Positions 4,882 through 55,444 of a DNA stretch of 64,000 bases are shown here, piece after piece (the stretch's first letter is position 1; the number at the start of each line of letters is the position of its first letter). The position numbers and the translations under genes are program-made. The DNA comes from Acidimicrobiia bacterium (lineage in GTDB: Bacteria > Actinomycetota > Acidimicrobiia > Acidimicrobiales > Poriferisodalaceae): contig JAJDZE010000021.1 of assembly GCA_022824805.1 (NCBI GenBank), forward strand, positions 1 to 64,000, written 5' to 3'. The notes beneath the pieces were generated by a model. That model was not told where the DNA came from and did not search any database. It was given only the letters and a program-made list of their open reading frames with translations.

Positions 4882-4925
4882 TTGTTTCCCGCTCTAGTTC
4901 GCTTCGCTCGCGGGCCGCTCGGGCC
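4882..4925 (-). repeat. Interspersed 44-nt repeat, copy A
   Basis: Reverse complement ggcccgagcggcccgcgagcgaagcgaactagagcgggaaacaa matches 51379..51422 at 40 of 44 positions. Confidence 0.8.
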
Positions 4926-45188: not shown

Positions 45189-46064
45189 ATGTATCCATCT
45201 CGCTTCCGCTACGAAGCGCCCTCGACCGTCGCCGAGGCAGTTGCGATGCTCGCCGCAGCAGACGGCGAGGCGAAGATCCTGGCGGGCGGCCAGAGCCTCA
45301 TCCCGATGATGAAACTGCGATTCGCCGCGCCCGAGATGATCGTGGACATCAACGGCATCGGCGGCCTCGACTATCACCGGGCCGATCCCGACGGCACCTA
45401 CCGCATCGGCGCATTGTGCCGGCACGCCGATCTCGAGAAATCCGCTGCGCTCGCCGATGCCCAGCCGACCATCGCCGCGGCGGCCCCTGTCGTGGCCGAT
45501 CCCTTGGTGCGCACACGGGGGACGCTCGTGGGCTCGGTGTGCCACGCCGACCCGCAAGGCGACTGGGCCTCGGTGATGGTGTCGCTGGAAGGCGCCATCG
45601 TGGCGCAGGGTCCCAAAGGACGCCGGAGCATTCAGGTGGCCGACCTCATCGACGGTCCGTTCCAGACGGTGCTCGCTCCCGACGAGATCGCCACCGAAGC
45701 AGTGGTTCCCGCGCCACGCGGCGCCCGGGCCGGCGGCTATCTCAAGCTGGAACGTCGAGTGGGCGACTTCGCCACCGTCGGCGTGGCGGTCTCCGTCGAG
45801 ATATCGGGCGGCAGCGTTGCGCGTGCGGGCATCGGGCTCACCGGCGTCGGGCCTGCCACCATCAACGCCTCCGACGCTGCGGCGGCGCTAGCTGGCACCG
45901 TGCTCGATGCAAGCGCCGTGGACGCGGCAGCCCAACTCGCGGCCGAGGCGGCTCAGCCACGCTCTGACCACCGGGGGAGCGCCGACTACAAGCGCCACGT
46001 CGTCGCCACCTTCGTGCGACGCATCGGTGCCCAGATCCAGCGATCAGAACAAGAGGCGGCCTGA
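45189..46064 (+). CDS. coxM: Aerobic CO dehydrogenase medium (FAD) subunit
   Basis: [54 protein letters not shown]; first gene of coxMSL. Confidence 0.93.
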
Positions 46065-46065
46065 C

Positions 46066-46644
46066 ATGAGCACATTGTTCGAAGAGGTCCGGCCGAGCGT
46101 CGCCGCCGATGACGCTGTGCCGGTTCGCCGGGTGGAGCTGACCGTGAACGGCGAGCGGCGTGCGGCCGATGTCGAACCGCGATTGCTGCTGGCGCACCTG
46201 CTGCGCAACGGCTTCCGGCTGACGGGAACCCACACCGGCTGCGACACGACCAACTGCGGCGCATGCACCGTGCTCTACGACGGTGTGCCCGTCAAGAGCT
46301 GCACGATGTTCGCCGTCCAAGCCGACGGCCACGAGGTGCTCACCGTCGAAGGCCTGGCGACGGCGAGCGAGCTGCACCCGATCCAGGAAGGCTTCAAAGA
46401 CGAGCACGGCCTGCAGTGCGGTTTCTGCACGCCGGGCATGATGCTCGCAGCCAAGGCGCTGCTGGAAGAGAACCCGAACCCCAGCGAGGACGAGATCCGC
46501 TGGGAGCTGTCGGGGAATCTCTGCCGCTGCACCGGGTACCAGAACATCGTCAAGGCAGTGATGTGGGCCGCCGACAAGCTCGGCGCCAACGCTGAGAGCG
46601 ACGGTGCGGGCGATGCCGGCGACGACGCAGGCGGGGAGGGCTGA
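46066..46644 (+). CDS. coxS: Aerobic CO dehydrogenase small (2x[2Fe-2S]) subunit
   Basis: [33 protein letters not shown] and [14 protein letters not shown]...[16 protein letters not shown]. Confidence 0.95.
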
Positions 46645-46645
46645 G

Positions 46646-49024
46646 ATGGCGCTCGACGAGATCAAGATCGGCGGCCTCGGCGCCAGCCGGCGGCGGGTGG
46701 AGGACAATCGCTTCATCCGCGGCAAGGGCAACTACATCGACGACATCGTCCTGCCGGGAATGCTGCACATGGAGATCCTGCGCAGCCCGCTCGCCCACGC
46801 CCGCATCCGCTTCATCGACGTCAGCGCCGCCTGGGCCATCCCCGGCGTTCGCATGGTGCTCACCGGCGACATGCTGGCCGCCCGGAATCTGGCGTGGATG
46901 CCGACGCTGTCGTACGACACTCAAGCTGTTCTCGCCACCGACAAGGTCCGATTCCAGGGTCAGGAAGTTGCCTGCGTCGTCGCCGACGACCCCTACATCG
47001 CCAAGGACGGTTGCGAAGCCATCGTGGTCGACTACGAACCGCTGCCGCCCATCGTCAATCCGACCCAGGCAACGGCCCCCGACGCGCCGTTGATCCGAGA
47101 CGACAAGACCGGGCAAGATTCCAACGTCGTCTTCGACTGGGAGGTCGGCGACCGCGAGGGCACCGATCGGGCCTTCGCGCAGGCCGATGTGACCTCGACC
47201 ATCGAGATGCACTACCCCCGGTCCCACCCCTCGCCCATCGAGGCGTGCGGCTCGATCGCCGACTTCAACCGGGCTACCTCGAAGCTCACTGTGTACATGA
47301 CCACCCAAGCGCCGCACATCATCCGCGCCGCGGTGGCCTTGGTCGCCGAGCTGCCCGAGCACATGATCCGCATCGTGTCGCCCGACCTCGGCGGAGGCTT
47401 CGGGAACAAGGTGCCCGTGTACCCGGGTTACGTGGTGTCGATCCTGGCGTCGATCCTGCTCGAATGCCCCGTCAAGTGGATCGAGGACAAGAGCGGGAAC
47501 CTCATCTCGACGGGGTTCGGCCGCGACATCTACCTCAAGGGCGAGATGGCGCTGCGCAACGACGGCCGCATTCTCGGCGTGCGGATGCACACCGACTCCG
47601 ACCACGGCGCCTTCTTCTCCGATGCGCAGCCGAGCAAGTTCAAGATCGGTCTGATGCACTCGGCCTTCAGCTGTTACGACATCCCGGCCGCGCATCTCAC
47701 CGCGCAGGGCGTGTACACCAACAAGGCGCCCGGCGGCGTGGCGTACCGGTGCTCGTTCCGGGTCACCGAGGCCATGTACTTCCAGGAGCGCATGGTGCAG
47801 GCGGCCGCCAGCGACCTCGGCATGGACCAGGCCGAGTTCCGCCGCGTCAACTTGGTGCGCGACGACGACTTCCCCCATCGCACGCCTTGGGGGTTCCTGA
47901 CCGACTCGGGCCAGTACGCCAAGTGCCTCGACCTCGGCCTCGAAGCGATCGGCTACGAGGACTTCCTGCGCCAGAAGGCGCAGGCGCGCCAGCGCGGCCG
48001 GCTGCTGGGCATCGGCATCTCGACCATGACCGAGCCCCTCGGGGCGGGCAACAGCCGGGAGTACGACATCTTGGGCATCAAGATGTTCGACTCCGCCGAG
48101 CTGAAGGTCCACATGACCGGCAAGGCGCTGCTGCGCACCGGCGCCAAGACACAGGGCCAAGGCCACGAGACCACGTGGGCGCAGATCGTCGCTCACGAAC
48201 TGGGCATACCGGCCGAGGATGTCCTGGTCGAAGAGGGCGACACCGACACGGCCCCGTTCGGCATGGGCACCTATGCCTCACGCAGCACCCCTGTGGCGGG
48301 CGCGGCGGTGTCCATGGTGTCGCGCAAGATCCGCGCCAAGGCCCGCAAGATCGCCGCGCATCTGCTCGAGGTGTCCGAGGAGGACATCGACTGGGAGCTC
48401 GGCAGGTTCTCGGTGCGTGGCGCACCTGACCGGGGCGTGACCATCCAGGAGTGCGCGATCGCCGCCTACAGCAACTTGCCCGACGGCATGGAGCCGGGCC
48501 TGGAGAACAACGCCTACTACGATCCGCCGAATCTGACGTGGCCGTTCGCCTGCTACATCGCGACGGTTGAGGTCGATCCCGAGACCGGCGTATGGGACGT
48601 CCTGCGGGTAGTGGCGGTGGACGACTGCGGCGTGCGCATCAACCCGATGATCGTCGAGGGCCAGATCATGGGCGGGCTCACCGAGGCCTACGCCATGGCC
48701 AACATGCAGTTCATCACCTTCGACGAGGACGGCAATTGCATCGGGTCCAACTACATGGACTACCTGTTGCCGACTGCGTGGGAGACACCGGGCTTCGAGC
48801 TGCATGAAGTGGTGACGCCGTGCCCCCACCATCCCATCGGGGCGAAGGGCATCGGGGAGTGCGCCACCGTGGGCGGTCCTGCGGCGTTCGTCAACGCGGT
48901 GATCGATGCCATCGGCGACACCGGCGTGCGCAACATCGACATGCCGCTGCTGCCCGATCGGGTCCATGAGGCCATCACGCAGGGCCACGACGTCTCCGGT
49001 GCTCCACCGGTGAAGACTGAATGA
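46646..49024 (+). CDS. coxL: Aerobic CO dehydrogenase large (Mo) subunit, form I
   Basis: [33 protein letters not shown]; form I catalytic-loop motif AYRCSFR at 47741..47761. Confidence 0.95.
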
Positions 49025-49983
49025 TGATCAGCTCCGGCGCCGTCGGGCCCGAACCGGACGGACACAGGGCCGTCGAGGGCTGGGGTGTGCTCGAGCGCGC
49101 CACCGAGCTGGCACGCAGCGGAGAGGCCTTCGTGCTGGCCACGGTTGTCTGGCGCGAGGGACCGACGTCGGGGCAGCAAGGTTCTCGCGCCATTTACACG
49201 GCCGCAGGCGAGATGTACGGGTGGATCGGCGGCGCATGCGCCGAGCCGGTGTTCATCCGTGAGGCCATCGCAACGCTCCAAGCGGGGAGGCCGCGCTTGC
49301 TGGCGCTCGGCGCGAGCGACCGATTCGGCGACCTGCCCCAGGGCACGACTGCGGTGCCGATGTCGTGCCAGAGCGAAGGCGCCCTGCAGATCTACTTGGA
49401 GCCCGTCGTGGCCACACCCCATCTCGTGATTGTCGGAAGCTCGCCCATGGCGACCACCCTGTCTGCTCTGGCCGCCCAGCTCGACTGGCGTGTCGAGCTG
49501 GTGGATCGTGCCGAGTTCAGCGAGGGACTGCTCGCACCGCAGTCGATGGTGGTTGTCGCCACCCAAGGACACGGCGATGAGGACGTGCTGGCTGCAGCAT
49601 TCAAGGCCGACCCCGCCTACGTGGGGCTGGTCTCGTCGGCTCGGCGAGGCCGCAGCGTGCGAACCCTGCTCGCCGCGCACGGTGTGGAGGAAGCTCAGCT
49701 CGGCGCACTGCGAGTTCCTGCCGGCCTGGATCTGGGCAGCACCACGCACAAGGAGGTCGCGGTGTCGATCCTGGCCGAGCTGGTGCAGCTTCGCGCCGAG
49801 GGTGCGCTCACGGCGGCTGTCGCTGCTCAGACGCCCACGATGCCGGAGGCTGTCGACCCTGTCTGCGGCATGACCGTCCAGGTCGATCCGGCGACGCCGT
49901 CGCTGGATATCGGCGATGAGGTCTTCTACTTCTGCTGTGCGGGGTGCCGCACAGCCTTCGCACGCGAGCGGGGAGTCGCCTGA
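49021..49983 (+). CDS. XdhC/CoxI-type maturation protein with C-terminal YHS domain
   Basis: LVIVGSSPMATTLSALAAQLDWRVELVDR, AYVGLVSSARRGRSVRTLL; C-terminal AVDPVCGMTVQVDPATPSLDIGDEVFYFCCAGCRTAFARE. Confidence 0.9.
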   Translation: MMISSGAVGPEPDGHRAVEGWGVLERATELARSGEAFVLATVVWREGPTSGQQGSRAIYTAAGEMYGWIGGACAEPVFIREAIATLQAGRPRLLALGASDRFGDLPQGTTAVPMSCQSEGALQIYLEPVVATPHLVIVGSSPMATTLSALAAQLDWRVELVDRAEFSEGLLAPQSMVVVATQGHGDEDVLAAAFKADPAYVGLVSSARRGRSVRTLLAAHGVEEAQLGALRVPAGLDLGSTTHKEVAVSILAELVQLRAEGALTAAVAAQTPTMPEAVDPVCGMTVQVDPATPSLDIGDEVFYFCCAGCRTAFARERGVA

Positions 49984-50567
49984 TGCAGATCACCAATCAG
50001 TTCCAGGTCGCGCAGCCGCCCGAGGCTGTGTGGAACTTCTTCGGCGACGTGCCGCAGGTCGCGGCGTGCCTGCCGGGCACTGAGCTGACGACCGAGCTGG
50101 GCGACGACCGCTACGGCGGCACCGTGTCCATCGGCCTCGGCCCCATCAAGCTGGACTTCGACGGCGGCGCCGAGATCACTCAACGCGATGAGGAGAACCG
50201 CACCATCTCCGTCGCTGCCAGCGGCGCCGATCGCAAGGGCCGGGGCCAAGCCACGCTCGAGCTCAACGCCAGCTTCGCTGACGCCGCGGGCGGCACGGGC
50301 GTGGAGGTAGCCATGGATCTGCAGCTTTCCGGGCCCGCAGCACAGTACGGGCGCGGCTTGGTGAGCGACATCACCGCGGTGCTGCTGAACGACTTCGCCG
50401 CCAACGTCCAGAACCGGCTCGCCGCCATCGCAGAGGGCCGCGATCCCGACCGAGTCGAACAGGTTCAAGCCGCCGGCGGCCTCGCCATCGGTCTGCGTGC
50501 CGCGGGCATGGGCCTCGCCCGCGTCGTGCGCCGACTTGCCCTGCCGTACCGACCCGAGGCCGTGTGA
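49983..50567 (+). CDS. coxG: CoxG family SRPBCC protein
   Basis: MQITNQFQVAQPPEAVWNFFGDVPQVAACLPGTELT...GSVSIGLGPIKLDFDGGAEI-type pattern with VNDFAANVQNRL-like C-terminal segment (LLNDFAANVQNRLAAI). Confidence 0.9.
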   Translation: MQITNQFQVAQPPEAVWNFFGDVPQVAACLPGTELTTELGDDRYGGTVSIGLGPIKLDFDGGAEITQRDEENRTISVAASGADRKGRGQATLELNASFADAAGGTGVEVAMDLQLSGPAAQYGRGLVSDITAVLLNDFAANVQNRLAAIAEGRDPDRVEQVQAAGGLAIGLRAAGMGLARVVRRLALPYRPEAV

Positions 50568-50577
50568 GGAGGCGCTC

Positions 50578-50829
50578 GTGCTCTGGTGGATAGGAAACCT
50601 GATACTGCTCGTGGTGGTCGTGCCCGTTGCGCTCGCGCTGCTGAACCGGGTACTCGCCGCGATCGAGCGCATTCGCAAGGCCAGCGACGACATCTTGGCC
50701 GGCGGCGTGGGGATCATCGGCGAGCTCGACACCACGCAGGACTTGCTCGCAACTACTGATGAGACGATCGAACAAGTGGCCGACGGAGCGGTCCGCTACG
50801 CCGGTTCGGTCGGGAAGCTCCTGGGCTGA
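50578..50829 (+). CDS. Small single-TM protein 1 of 5
   Basis: GTG start preceded by AGGAGG (50567..50572). VLWWIGNLILLVVVVPVALALLNRVLAAIERIRKASDDILAGG... Confidence 0.75.
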   Translation: MLWWIGNLILLVVVVPVALALLNRVLAAIERIRKASDDILAGGVGIIGELDTTQDLLATTDETIEQVADGAVRYAGSVGKLLG

Positions 50830-50840
50830 AAGGGGACGTG

Positions 50841-51068
50841 ATGCCTGTTGTTGCCTGGGTCACTGTCATCATCGGCGGCTTGATCATCCTGGCGGCTGCG
50901 GTGGGCCTGCTGCGGGTGGTGCTGCACTTGGTTGCAGTGCACCGCACGCTCACCCAAGTGGCCGGGGGTGTTCGTGTCATCGCCGAGCAGACCTCGACGG
51001 TGCCCACGGTGCTGCCGTCGGTCAACTCGACGCTGATGCCCGTCCACGACTTCTGCGAATCGATCTGA
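50841..51068 (+). CDS. Small single-TM protein 2 of 5
   Basis: MPVVAWVTVIIGGLIILAAAVGLLRVVLHLVAVHRTLTQVAGGVRVIAEQTSTVPTVLPSVNSTLMPVHDFCESI. Confidence 0.72.
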   Translation: MPVVAWVTVIIGGLIILAAAVGLLRVVLHLVAVHRTLTQVAGGVRVIAEQTSTVPTVLPSVNSTLMPVHDFCESI

Positions 51069-51081
51069 GGGAGGCACCGCC

Positions 51082-51360
51082 ATGGCGCAGTTGCTCGCCC
51101 AGAGCTCGGACGCCGGATCCACCACCGGATGGGTCATCGGCTATGTCATCGGCATCGTCGTGGTGATCGCGGTGGTCGCCCTCGTCGTGCCCATCTTGAT
51201 GCTGGCCCGCTCGATCGGCAACCGGGCCACCGAGATCAACGACGGTCTGGAGGACGCCGTCACCAACACGGCGGCGCTCGGGGAACTGAACACCACGATC
51301 GCAGCGGCAACGGTGATCGTCGACGGCCTCAAACGCGGCCGGAACCGGTTAGGAGGCTGA
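51082..51360 (+). CDS. Small single-TM protein 3 of 5
   Basis: MAQLLAQSSDAGSTTGWVIGYVIGIVVVIAVVALVVPILMLARSIGNRATEINDGLEDAVTNTAALGELNTT...; GGGAGG upstream. Confidence 0.75.
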   Translation: MAQLLAQSSDAGSTTGWVIGYVIGIVVVIAVVALVVPILMLARSIGNRATEINDGLEDAVTNTAALGELNTTIAAATVIVDGLKRGRNRLGG

Positions 51361-51378
51361 GCCGAATGGCGAAGCCGT

Positions 51379-51422
51379 GGCCCGAGCGGCCCGTGAGCGA
51401 AGCGAACAAGAGCGGGAGGCAA
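51379..51422 (+). repeat. Interspersed 44-nt repeat, copy B
   Basis: ggcccgagcggcccgtgagcgaagcgaacaagagcgggaggcaa; 40 of 44 positions match 4882..4925 reverse complement. Confidence 0.8.
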
Positions 51423-51474
51423 TTGGCGATGCAACAGAAAGTTCCGCTGATCGGCGCAGGCTTAGGAGGCTGAC

Positions 51475-51765
51475 ATGAACCTGCTGGCTCTCACCGACAC
51501 CCAAGAGAACCTGTGGTGGGGGGTCATCATCGGCGGCTTCGTGGTGATCGTGGCAGTGGTGGTGCTGCTCACCATGCTGGTGCTGCTGGTGCGCACGATC
51601 GAGCGCCGGGTGGAGACCATCAAAGGCACGCTCGAGCGGGCCGCCGCCAACACGTCTGACACCGCCCTGATCGCCGAAACCGCCGACGGGGTCGATGCGG
51701 TGCTGACCGAAGGCCTCGAACACCACCTGTTCCTCGGCCGAGTACTCGACAAGGTGCGCTCATGA
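51475..51765 (+). CDS. Small single-TM protein 4 of 5
   Basis: MNLLALTDTQENLWWGVIIGGFVVIVAVVVLLTMLVLLVRTIERRVETIKGTLERAAANTSDTALIAETADGV...; similar in layout to protein 3. Confidence 0.78.
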   Translation: MNLLALTDTQENLWWGVIIGGFVVIVAVVVLLTMLVLLVRTIERRVETIKGTLERAAANTSDTALIAETADGVDAVLTEGLEHHLFLGRVLDKVRS

Positions 51766-52124
51766 CAACGCTCGTAGTTCTCTCGGTCATCCTGATCGGC
51801 CTGTTCATCGCCGGGCTCGCCTTCTACCTGTTCGTAGTGGGCAGCCAGCTCACTCGCATCGCCGGCTTGCTCGAGGAGTGCTCGCAGCTCGTGTGGAAGA
51901 TCAAGTCCGACGCTGAGGCCGTCGAGCCGGGCGTCGAGCGCATCAACAACACGGCCGGCGTCATCGCGGGCGCATTGCCACTGCTGTACGGCATGGCCGA
52001 AGGCATCGTGACCGGCGCCACCTACGAGCCTGAACCAGAGCCGCGCGAGCCGTCGCCGGCCCGGCCCGCGATGGGCACGCGCCGCAGCCGGCTTCACGAC
52101 GCAGTCGGCTACCACCCCGAATAG
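51762..52124 (+). CDS. Small single-TM protein 5 of 5
   Basis: MTTLVVLSVILIGLFIAGLAFYLFVVGSQLTRIAGLLEECSQLVWKIKSDAEAVEPGVERINNTAGVIAGALPLLYGMAEGI...; overlaps upstream stop (ATGA). Confidence 0.8.
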   Translation: MTTLVVLSVILIGLFIAGLAFYLFVVGSQLTRIAGLLEECSQLVWKIKSDAEAVEPGVERINNTAGVIAGALPLLYGMAEGIVTGATYEPEPEPREPSPARPAMGTRRSRLHDAVGYHPE

Positions 52125-52134
52125 CCGCCTGCGC

Positions 52135-52602
52135 TCAGCTTGACTCTGACTCTGAGGCTGAGCCGGCCGAGCCGCTGGGATCTCGCGTCGTGGTGAGCGG
52201 GCCTGCGGTGGGGGCCCGGTAGCTGCCGATCCACTCGTCCTCCCACACCCGGTCGAACTGGTCGGGCGCGCAGCCGGGCCGGTAGATGGCGACGAGCTCC
52301 TGGACGATCTGCTCGCGATGCGAGCGCAGCCCGCCCGGCACCTCATAGGTGCAGATGTGGAGGTTCCACTTGTTGCCGGCGCGCCGTTCCCAGCACTTGG
52401 CTCGGGGGTGGCCGAACGGCAGCCCCGCACTAGCCAGGTTGTCCGCATGGTCGACGTCGAGCACGGCGTAGTCGTACGGCTTGCCGTCGGGGTCGGCCCG
52501 GTACAGGATCGCGAACACGGCTGCACTCGCGGGCGGCGTCCAGCCGCCGAGCACTCGTGGCCCCTCGAAGGGGTAGCCGGCGAGCGAGCCGAGCCGAATC
52601 AT
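52135..52602 (-). CDS. Conserved hypothetical protein
   Basis: 155 aa MIRLGSLAGYPFEGPRVLGGWTPPASAAVFAILYRADPDGKPYDYAVLDVDHADNLASAG...; soluble, coherent codon usage. Confidence 0.7.
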   Translation of the reverse strand: MIRLGSLAGYPFEGPRVLGGWTPPASAAVFAILYRADPDGKPYDYAVLDVDHADNLASAGLPFGHPRAKCWERRAGNKWNLHICTYEVPGGLRSHREQIVQELVAIYRPGCAPDQFDRVWEDEWIGSYRAPTAGPLTTTRDPSGSAGSASESESS

Positions 52603-52628
52603 TGGGGCAGCGTCATTGGGGCAGCGTC
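52601..52628. repeat. Perfect 14-bp tandem duplication at gene junction
   Basis: ATTGGGGCAGCGTC twice in tandem, followed by ATTCG. Confidence 0.8.
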
Positions 52629-52911
52629 ATTCGTCGAACTCCAACTCGTCCTCGCCGATCACTTCGGCTCGGGTCATCGGCCAGGCGGGGAGGTCTGCTG
52701 TCTCGACAGCAGCAGCGAACGCCGCCACGGCCGCTTCGACGGCTTGGTCGGAACTCTCAGCCTCCACAACGATCTGGGCGCCGTAGGCCATCGCACCGAC
52801 GCCGGATGCGATGCCTTCGAGCGGTGCGACAGCATCGGCCAGCGCGACCACCTCATCCAGTTCGATGGGGCGGTCGCCTTCGGCCTGGATGGAAACGCTC
52901 CACTTGGCCAT
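52627..52911 (-). CDS. Small conserved hypothetical protein
   Basis: 94 aa MAKWSVSIQAEGDRPIELDEVVALADAVAPLEGIASGVGAMAYGAQIVVEAESSDQAVEAAVAAFAAAVETADLPAWPMTRAEVIGEDELEFDE. Confidence 0.65.
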   Translation of the reverse strand: MAKWSVSIQAEGDRPIELDEVVALADAVAPLEGIASGVGAMAYGAQIVVEAESSDQAVEAAVAAFAAAVETADLPAWPMTRAEVIGEDELEFDE

Positions 52912-53013: not shown

Positions 53014-54180
53014 CTAGCCGACATGGGCCAGCTTGGCGGCGAAACGCTCCAGGCTGGCGAGATCGTGGCCTGACTCGAGGCTGTCGATGAACGGACCGGC
53101 GGCCATCATGCCGAGCGTGTTCGGCAGCGTCTCGACATCGTCGCCGGCGAGCGGGTTCATCCAGATGGTTCGATGGCACAGCCGGCCAAGTCGTTCCATG
53201 GCATCGGCCAGGGCGGCAGGCTCGCCCCGATCCAGCCCGTCGGAGCAGATGACGACGGTGGCGCCGCGGCTGAGCCCCTTGCGGCCCCACCTGCGGATGA
53301 AGCTGTCCAACGATGCTCCGATCTGGGTGCCGCCGTCCCAATCCAGAACGCGGGCAGCCGCCAGCCTCATCGCGTCGTCGGGGTTGCGCCGGTCGAGCGC
53401 TGGGGTGATGCGCGTCAACCGGGTGCCGAAGCAGAACACCTCCACCTTCTGGGCTGCCCGGCGCATCGAGTAGGCGAACTGCAGCAGGTTGCGGGAGTAG
53501 TCGGCCATCGACCCCGATATGTCGAGGATCAGCACGAGCGGGCGAGCCCGCTCGGCTCGGGTCACGCGGTGCAGGACCGGGGCGGCGTGGCTGAGACGCA
53601 TGGCGTCGCGGGCGATGCGGCGGATGTCGAGGCGTGCCCCCGACGGGTCGGTGCGACGCCGCCGAGTGCGACGGCGTGGCGGTTCGAGTCGAACATGCGC
53701 CATGATGCGCCGCAGCGCAGCCAGCTCGGTGGGCGTGCACTCGGCGAAGCGCTTGTCGCGCTGGATCTCGACCCCGGAGGCCTGACGCCCGAGCACCATC
53801 GGCCGATCGTCGCCCGATTCGGCGCCGGGCTCGCTGTCGGGCACGTTCAGCGTGCCGCTCTGGCCCTGTGCAATCGGTTCGGATTCGGACGGCTCGGGGT
53901 CGGCCGAGGCCCGGTGTCCCAAGAAGTACCGGCGGAATACGTCGTCGTAGAGCGGCAGGTGGTCCTGGCGATGGACCAGCGTCGTGCGGCCGCTCCAGTA
54001 GACGTCTTCGAGATCGCTCGGCGTGAGCTCGGACACCGCAGAGCAGAACGTGACCACATCGTCGGCGCCCACCGCCAAACCCTCGTCTCGCAACGCATGG
54101 CCGAAGCCGACGAGCCTCGCTACGAATTCCGTTGACGGCGTGTCGGCCGCCGCATCGAGCGCCCGACCCACCTCAGGCAT
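53014..54180 (-). CDS. coxE: VWA-domain protein, CoxE-like
   Basis: RPLVLILDISGSMADYSRNLLQFAYSMRRAAQKVEVFCFGTRLTRITPAL...DWDGGTQIGASLDSFIRRWG; MIDAS DISGS. Confidence 0.9.
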   Translation of the reverse strand: MPEVGRALDAAADTPSTEFVARLVGFGHALRDEGLAVGADDVVTFCSAVSELTPSDLEDVYWSGRTTLVHRQDHLPLYDDVFRRYFLGHRASADPEPSESEPIAQGQSGTLNVPDSEPGAESGDDRPMVLGRQASGVEIQRDKRFAECTPTELAALRRIMAHVRLEPPRRRTRRRRTDPSGARLDIRRIARDAMRLSHAAPVLHRVTRAERARPLVLILDISGSMADYSRNLLQFAYSMRRAAQKVEVFCFGTRLTRITPALDRRNPDDAMRLAAARVLDWDGGTQIGASLDSFIRRWGRKGLSRGATVVICSDGLDRGEPAALADAMERLGRLCHRTIWMNPLAGDDVETLPNTLGMMAAGPFIDSLESGHDLASLERFAAKLAHVG

Positions 54181-54218: not shown

Positions 54219-55112
54219 TCAGGCATCGGCGACAACCCTGTCCAGCTCGCCTTCGACCAGTTCGAGGTCGTCGCGGTCCTTGATGACCGCGCCGATCGTG
54301 TCGGCTGCGGCTGGTACATCGAGATCGTCGGTGCCCAGCACGCCGAGCGCATCGACCCAGTCCAGCGTCTCGGCCACTCCCGGCGGCTTGGCGAGATCCA
54401 TGTCGCGCAGGCGCTGAACGGCAGCAACCACCTTGTGCGCCAAGGTCGCGACGGCATCGGGCGCGCGCAAGCGCACGATCTCGATTTCCTCCTCGAAGCT
54501 GGGGTAGCCGATCCAGTGATACAGACATCGGCGCTTGAGGGCGTCGTGCAATTCCCGTGTGCGATTCGAGGTCAGCACCACCATCGGCCGGCTGGCCGCG
54601 GTGATGGTGCCGAGCTCGGGGATCGTGATCTGGAAGTCCGACAGCAGCTCCAGCAGGAAGGCCTCGAATTCGTCGTCGGCACGATCGACCTCGTCGATGA
54701 GCAGCACCGCACTGCTGCCGGCCTTGATCGCCGACAGCAGCGGCCGCTCGATCAGGAATTCAGGGCCGTACAGCCCGCTGACGGCCCCGGCGTCGGTCAG
54801 CTCGCTCTCTGACAGCGCCCTGACGTGCAGCATCTGCCGCGCGTAGTCCCACTCGTAGAGCGCCTGGTAGGTGTCGATTCCCTCGTAGCACTGCAGGCGG
54901 ATCAGCTCCCGCCCGCCGATCTCCGCGAGGCACTTGGCCATCTCAGTCTTGCCAACCCCGACCTCGCCTTCGAGCAGGATCGGCCGGCCCAGCCGCATCC
55001 CGATGAGCGCTGCAGTGGCCAGGCCTCGGCTCGCGAGGTAGCCGGCTGCTCGAAGCTGTGCCCGGAGGTCGGCAACGCTCGCCGGTGTCTCGTTGCGGGG
55101 CTGCTCGCTCAC
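54219..55112 (-). CDS. coxD: MoxR-type AAA ATPase, CoxD-like
   Basis: GRPILLEGEVGVGKTEMAKCLAEIGGRELIRLQCYEGIDTYQALYEWDYARQML...VLLIDEVDRADDEFEAFLLELLSDFQITIPELGTI; GTG start near 55112. Confidence 0.92.
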   Translation of the reverse strand: MSEQPRNETPASVADLRAQLRAAGYLASRGLATAALIGMRLGRPILLEGEVGVGKTEMAKCLAEIGGRELIRLQCYEGIDTYQALYEWDYARQMLHVRALSESELTDAGAVSGLYGPEFLIERPLLSAIKAGSSAVLLIDEVDRADDEFEAFLLELLSDFQITIPELGTITAASRPMVVLTSNRTRELHDALKRRCLYHWIGYPSFEEEIEIVRLRAPDAVATLAHKVVAAVQRLRDMDLAKPPGVAETLDWVDALGVLGTDDLDVPAAADTIGAVIKDRDDLELVEGELDRVVADA

Positions 55113-55138
55113 CGTTCGAGCCCGGAACGCTGCCGGCC

Positions 55139-55444
55139 TCAGTCGCCCGAAGTGGGACCGAGGACCAGGTCGCGCACTGAGGTGCCGTCGGGGGATGACT
55201 TGCCTTCGCGCTCGAGCAGCTTCCGCCACGACGTGGCGATGTCCTCGTCGCCTTCAGCAAAGCCGTCGAAGGTGAAATGGCGAGCGTTGCGGCAGATCTT
55301 GACGTTGCTGCTCTCAGCGTCGAAGCCGGCGCCGTCGTCTCCCTGCCAGACATCTGTCAGGACGGGCTGCGGCTCGGTGCCGACGTCTGCCTGCACAGAC
55401 ACCGGATCGGTCGAGGTCACCGCCTCGATAGTAGCCGCAGGCAC
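55139..55444 (-). CDS. Small hypothetical protein
   Basis: 101 aa acidic ORF MPAATIEAVTSTDPVSVQADVGTEPQPVL...; position upstream of coxD. Confidence 0.45.
   Translation of the reverse strand: MPAATIEAVTSTDPVSVQADVGTEPQPVLTDVWQGDDGAGFDAESSNVKICRNARHFTFDGFAEGDEDIATSWRKLLEREGKSSPDGTSVRDLVLGPTSGD

Follow-up and report, generated by a model that had tools for sequence, protein, structure and literature searches.

Five small genes, P1 to P5, that lie directly downstream of coxG in a locus for the Mo-Cu CO dehydrogenase (CODH) of an Acidimicrobiia bacterium look, on profile comparison and gene layout, like a version of HylTM1-5 that accompanies CODH instead of the high-affinity [NiFe]-hydrogenases of group 1l. 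HylTM1-5 are five short proteins with a single transmembrane (TM) segment, encoded between the small- and large-subunit genes; Ray et al. (2022, PMC9561532) mention them, citing an earlier study, and give no function. We consider it fairly probable that P1 to P5 are the CODH-associated version of a HylTM1-5-type module, in which a hetero-oligomeric helical anchor would dock the dehydrogenase at the membrane for quinone delivery. How electrons pass to the membrane from soluble, high-affinity oxidases of CO and H2 in soil bacteria is a question that HucM and CoxG answer in two cases, and a five-protein module common to Mo-Cu CODH and hydrogenase lineages suggests a coupling device that both kinds of atmospheric trace-gas respiration share.

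Five small single-TM proteins are encoded after coxG in a form I CODH locus

The window, i.e., the whole stretch of 64,000 nucleotides analyzed here, comes from a 3.69-Mb assembly of 211 contigs, whose closest named relatives are metagenome-assembled Acidimicrobiia. At 45-55 kb, the plus strand carries the run coxM-coxS-coxL-XdhC/YHS-coxG followed by P1 to P5, and X1, X2, and then the coxE/coxD-like genes lie 3' of P5 on the minus strand (Table 1). The gene order coxM-coxS-coxL and the AYxCSFR loop of CoxL, present as AYRCSFR, identify the enzyme as a form I Mo-CODH, and the nearest solved structure to the window CoxL is that of PDB 8uem. The coxM gene has an alternative start upstream, at 45189, and the coxE-like gene is 35-36% identical to annotated VWA genes adjoining coxL in two other loci (L315 and L317). 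The five consecutive plus-strand reading frames of 75-120 aa that the original prediction had placed directly after coxG were all confirmed; P1 begins after a gap of 10 bp from the end of coxG (50567), and P4 and P5 overlap by ATGA.

Table 1. Features of the cox locus (positions in the 64,000-nucleotide window)
Feature	Position	Strand	Evidence
coxM (medium, FAD subunit)	45246..46064	+	ORF; orthologue 5' of coxS-coxL in intact related loci
coxS (small, 2Fe-2S subunit)	46066..46644	+	ORF; conserved locus
coxL, form I, active-site motif AYRCSFR	46646..49024	+	ORF; PDB 8uem CoxL E 1e-290
XdhC/CoxI-type protein, C-terminal TRASH/YHS-like domain	49021..49983	+	PF13478 E 1e-25, PF02625 E 2e-16
coxG (SRPBCC quinone-shuttle family)	49983..50567	+	PF06240 E 8e-18
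P1, 83 aa, GTG start, one TM helix, HylTM-like family 1	50578..50829	+	profile vs hydrogenase-P1
P2, 75 aa, one TM helix, HylTM-like family 2	50841..51068	+	profile vs hydrogenase-P2
P3, 92 aa, one TM helix, HylTM-like family 3	51082..51360	+	profile vs hydrogenase-P3
P4, 96 aa, one TM helix, HylTM-like family 4	51475..51765	+	profile vs hydrogenase-P4
P5, 120 aa, one TM helix and cox-specific C-terminal tail, HylTM-like family 5	51762..52124	+	profile vs hydrogenase-P5
X1, 155 aa, convergent, without known family, conserved in cox locus	52135..52602	-	
X2, 94 aa, convergent, without known family, conserved in cox locus	52627..52911	-	
coxE-like (VWA), approximate start	53014..54072	-	ORF; conserved position
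coxD-like MoxR-type AAA ATPase, approximate start	54219..55229	-	PF07728 AAA_5 E 2e-14

P3 and P4 are separated by an insert of about 114 bp (51361-51474), where sister genomes have a 1-bp gap. The first ~57 bp of this insert are a dispersed repeat found at about 50 places in the genome, some of them tandem, with another copy in the window at 4889-4920 on the minus strand; Rfam had no match in the region 50400-52700, the insert included. On the far side of the array, X1 and X2 (52135-52911, minus strand) are kept beside coxE/coxD in most of the CODH clade described below.

Each of the five proteins has a single strong hydrophobic segment and a polar tail. The original prediction had also taken P3 and P4 to be paralogues, which profile comparison bears out (probability 97%, E 2e-11), and had seen P5 as their relative. 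This last claim fell, since the profiles of the cox set give it a probability below 2%; the paralogue of P5 is P2, a relationship that is clear in the hydrogenase versions described below (98.7%). Of the profile searches suggested for each protein, those against Pfam and NCBIfam gave no match over the curated cut-off for any of the five, sub-threshold hits being low-complexity or TM matches, and a PDB profile search found no homologue of P1 or P4, the weak matches of P4 being designed helical repeats. DUF948 (PF06103) shares the architecture of one TM segment and a helical tail; P3 was rejected as a member, scoring 15.8 bits against a gathering cut-off of 37.2. A cytochrome or Fe-S role was likewise ruled out for all five, as their alignments have no conserved Cys motif.

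The array accompanies a clade of form I CODHs

A scan for CoxL, with one genome per species, gave 80 named loci with 83-98% identity to the window CoxL, and the 58 that reach at least 1.65 kb past coxG were taken as testable. All five P genes lie directly 3' of coxG in 57 of these 58 loci and four in the remaining one, so the anticipated co-occurrence with form I coxL and coxG held in this clade; loci too short to test hold as many P genes as fit. Median dN/dS was 0.22-0.31 per gene (49-56 pairwise comparisons each), which indicates purifying selection and, together with the conservation of all five genes in place, identifies P1 to P5 as real genes. Cultured carriers of the CODH version are found in Nocardioides (e.g., N. 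soli DSM 105498), Kineosporia, Frankia, Trebonia, Planosporangium, and Actinomadura, so that the coupling question is now addressable in cultured strains.

Within the same order, eight other assemblies (L039-L046) have P1 to P5 with coxG; the whole coxMSL-XdhC-coxG-P1-P5 run is present in seven, and in the eighth a contig end interrupts it. Among 148 genomes of the order, the array was found in all eight with a CoxL at least 87% identical to that of the window, and the 23 whose best CoxL is 54-66% identical show no cox-type array. The reference CODH loci of Afipia carboxidovorans OM5, Thermomicrobium roseum, and Deinococcus sp. AJ005 are also without it. A plasmid collection yielded only canonical hydrogenases (27-43% identical) and other CODHs, which served as negative controls.

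Two further observations concern these loci. In seven loci (L244, L263, L269, L276, L278, L283, and L289), the cox operon with the P genes stands back to back with a second, divergent coxMSL set (CoxL 55-57%). In addition, genome G027 retains P4, P5, and a truncated P3 (L047, 8463-9374), although cox genes are missing from the surroundings and a search of the genome gave no form I CoxL; its sister G145 has a cox locus with P1 to P5, and the G027 array looks like a remnant after cox gene loss.

The same five families adjoin [NiFe]-hydrogenases

A second type of locus came to light through weaker matches, obtained with P5 and with the P1 profile. For the large and small [NiFe]-hydrogenase subunits encoded there, the best structural match by far is the group 1h enzyme of Ralstonia/Cupriavidus (PDB 5AA5; E 8e-157 and 1e-107, respectively); subgroup names are used here by gene layout and PDB similarity, not by a curated classifier. 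Accessory genes at these loci encode HycI, HypC, NifU-like, and CooC-like proteins, and the array reads P1-P2, often Q1-Q4, then P3-P4-P5. Comparison of cox with hydrogenase profiles paired the five proteins one to one: 99.1% (E 5e-19) for P1, 97.1% (E 5e-11) for P2, 99.0% (E 3e-18) for P3, 99.0% (E 2e-18) for P4, and 97.7% (E 2e-12) for P5. In each case, the best hydrogenase profile is that of the same number, all other pairs being weaker save the paralogues P2/P5 and P3/P4. As judged from these profiles, P1 to P5 are not CODH-specific, and the same five families adjoin [NiFe]-hydrogenases of a group 1h-like lineage.

The linkage extends to the phylum. Of the 19 phylum genomes whose large subunit shares 50% identity or more with the query hydrogenase, 18 have P1, and the one exception is a 75% complete genome; 13 canonical hydrogenase loci (42-46% identity) are without P genes. 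In the hydrogenase tree, in which the long branch of L194 is unsurely placed, most array-bearing enzymes stand apart from canonical ones, with L140 as the exception. In the source genome itself, no large subunit of the group 1h/1l-like kind turned up at E ≤ 1e-60.

One hydrogenase family, f77 (L207, L208, L209, and L212), has the order small subunit - P3-P4-P5-P1-P2 - large subunit. These arrays were recovered with profiles built on the cox and order-level hydrogenase arrays, and their P proteins fall in the five families of the window. They share the published layout of HylTM1-5, and it is on this layout that the identity with HylTM1-5 rests. The window set resembles HylTM1-5 in comprising five short proteins with one TM segment each, whose genes lie together with those of a high-affinity gas oxidoreductase. 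The window set differs in that its partner is the Mo-Cu CODH, its order is P1-P2-P3-P4-P5 after coxG rather than between hydrogenase subunit genes, and its P5 has a long conserved C-terminal tail that hydrogenase P5 lacks. Group 1m [NiFe]-hydrogenase clusters have two proteins of 82-92 aa with one TM segment beside CooC, TPR, BirA-like, and HybD-type genes (PMC9561532), and these surroundings resemble those of P1-P2 in L057, L136, L143, and L147. Two small proteins were reported for group 1m, whereas here P3 to P5 follow further along or on another contig. As such, the published descriptions of groups 1l and 1m both match loci found here. The expectation of an undescribed component thus stood only in part: the name HylTM was already in the literature (in our search, in PMC9561532 only), with no function given there, and that search, which left the group 1l source paper outside, turned up no account of the module beside CODH genes.

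Other genes also recur at these loci. Q1 to Q4 are four larger one-span proteins with Arg-rich N termini, of opposite predicted topology, and repetitive tails; in many hydrogenase loci they separate P2 from P3, and they also adjoin some CODH arrays (e.g., L057, 12791-15453; L050, L054, L061, L142-L145, L203, and L205). CoxD/CoxE-like (MoxR/VWA) genes, 28-55% identical to those of the window, occur within the hydrogenase loci L181, L183, L195, and L206.

A proposed membrane anchor for soluble dehydrogenases

In 111 of 112 homologues, the membrane span is followed by more Lys and Arg residues than precede it, with one tie, a bias that places the tails in the cytoplasm, on the same side as CODH and CoxG. 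Each protein is predicted to have a short N terminus outside, to cross the membrane once, and to extend a tail of at least about 50 residues into the cytoplasm. The model of P1 is a single helix (residues 2-82, pLDDT 92), and that of P5 is a helix (2-85) followed by a low-confidence yet conserved tail; these long-helix models count for little, because AlphaFold draws most lone helices straight. Measured against permuted controls, the helical tail is amphipathic in P1, P2, P3, and P5 (p 0.0005-0.026) but not significantly so in P4 (p 0.27). The hydrophobic segments of all five proteins and the helix models of P1 and P5 agree with the original description of an N-terminal hydrophobic helix followed by a polar, helical-looking tail.

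In the docking mechanism that we favor, the five chains would form a hetero-oligomeric, membrane-anchored helical anchor or stalk, and their cytoplasmic tails would hold the soluble dehydrogenase at the membrane, whether this is the hydrogenase SL unit or CoxMSL together with CoxG. Menaquinone could then receive the electrons of CO or H2 efficiently; in the CODH case, the quinone itself is probably carried by CoxG. The platform for CODH and CoxG envisaged in the original prediction is partly supported, being consistent with the linkage, the predicted N-out/C-in topology, and the long-helix models; its CODH-only framing is lost, since hydrogenases share the set. The cofactors of the two enzymes differ, being Mo-Cu-pterin in CODH and NiFe-CN-CO in the hydrogenase, and therefore a common module more likely serves a common step, namely meeting the membrane and the quinone pool. 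The HucM stalk of Huc, described below, is a precedent for this mechanism too. Several findings run against this reading: CoxG is in the same operon and may alone suffice for quinone coupling, a few arrays have no visible enzyme neighbor, and G027 has P3 to P5 without cox genes. Furthermore, the module is missing from the reference CODH loci and from canonical group 1h loci, and it is therefore dispensable for the chemistry in general.

The module might instead be a membrane-bound platform for maturation or assembly, needed at cofactor insertion rather than in electron transfer, with CoxD/CoxE-type ATPases acting alongside it. MoxR/VWA genes near many cox arrays and in the four hydrogenase loci named above fit this idea, as do the NifU-, CooC-, and HycI-like maturation genes that adjoin hydrogenase arrays. 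However, the two cofactors differ in their maturation chemistries as well, maturation genes occur without the module in canonical group 1h loci and in other CODH loci, and the f77 array sits between structural genes. We therefore regard a maturation role as unlikely.

A second alternative takes its precedent from HucM of Huc (group 2a, Mycobacterium smegmatis), a membrane-associated helical stalk that scaffolds the enzyme and supplies menaquinone (PMC10017518). By description rather than by sequence, P1 to P5 would resemble HucM as small helical scaffolds linking a cytoplasmic gas-oxidizing enzyme to the membrane and quinone; HucM, in contrast, is one protein, a homotetramer with peripheral membrane association, whereas the P proteins have a true TM segment. 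The five proteins could then be a heteromeric analogue that does more than dock the enzyme, namely a hydrophobic tube of helices through which menaquinone would reach it. The continuous helices of about 80 residues in the P1 and P5 models, the amphipathic tails in four of the five, and the lack of a CoxG match in array-bearing hydrogenase loci would suit such a tube. It would, however, be partly redundant in cox loci, which encode CoxG, a menaquinone-binding protein according to Kropp et al. (2025, as cited in PMC13240472), and we think it improbable. CoxG (PF06240), implicated in CODH-to-quinone coupling from the same operon, has an SRPBCC fold, and P1 to P5 have no PF06240 match.

Distribution and repeated association with CODH

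A phylum scan, in which many genomes are incomplete assemblies, found P1 in 41 of 397 genomes. Of 40 P places fetched, 11 are beside CODH genes (one of them beside coxG only, at a contig edge), 20 are beside hydrogenase genes, and nine are beside neither. The refutation named in the original prediction, homologues mostly away from cox operons, is half borne out, yet the hydrogenase context is functionally parallel.

In a tree of concatenated P1 to P5, the window clade and the arrays of L203 and L205, which belong to other CODHs (CoxL about 73%), form one supported group, and the arrays with a CoxL of 56-57% (L202, L210, and L213) form another. The well-supported branches of this tree require the non-window cox label to change at least twice, so the CODH association arose, or was exchanged, more than once, and the array appears to have been acquired by CODH at least twice. 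Extending the docking mechanism, we tentatively raise the possibility that P1 to P5/HylTM are a portable five-subunit TM adaptor, a hetero-oligomeric stalk recruited more than once that would dock different soluble atmospheric-gas dehydrogenases (Mo-Cu CODH and group 1l/1m-like hydrogenases) and give them access to menaquinone. If so, many Actinomycetota would rely on one module for the respiration of both atmospheric CO and atmospheric H2.

A generic membrane-stress or scaffolding set, near these operons only through shared regulation or historical linkage, would account for the few arrays without a gas-enzyme neighbor, one of them adjoining apparent Mrp-type antiporter genes, but is very improbable given the near-invariant linkage in the CODH clade, the presence of P1 in nearly all phylum genomes with a related hydrogenase, the separate CODH associations, and the insertion of the array between hydrogenase subunit genes.

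The nine places without a gas-enzyme neighbor are L189, L196-L199, L201, L204, L215, and L214; five of them belong to one genus, some on short contigs. The P1 match in L214 (E 4e-6) falls within a 459-codon open frame and was judged spurious. L215 (9370-17000) has a divergent P1-P3-P4-P5 array, followed by Mrp-type antiporter-like genes, with no CODH or hydrogenase gene near. L189 has a full P array, and the other genes on its contig read as the large and small subunits of RuBisCO and CbbX.
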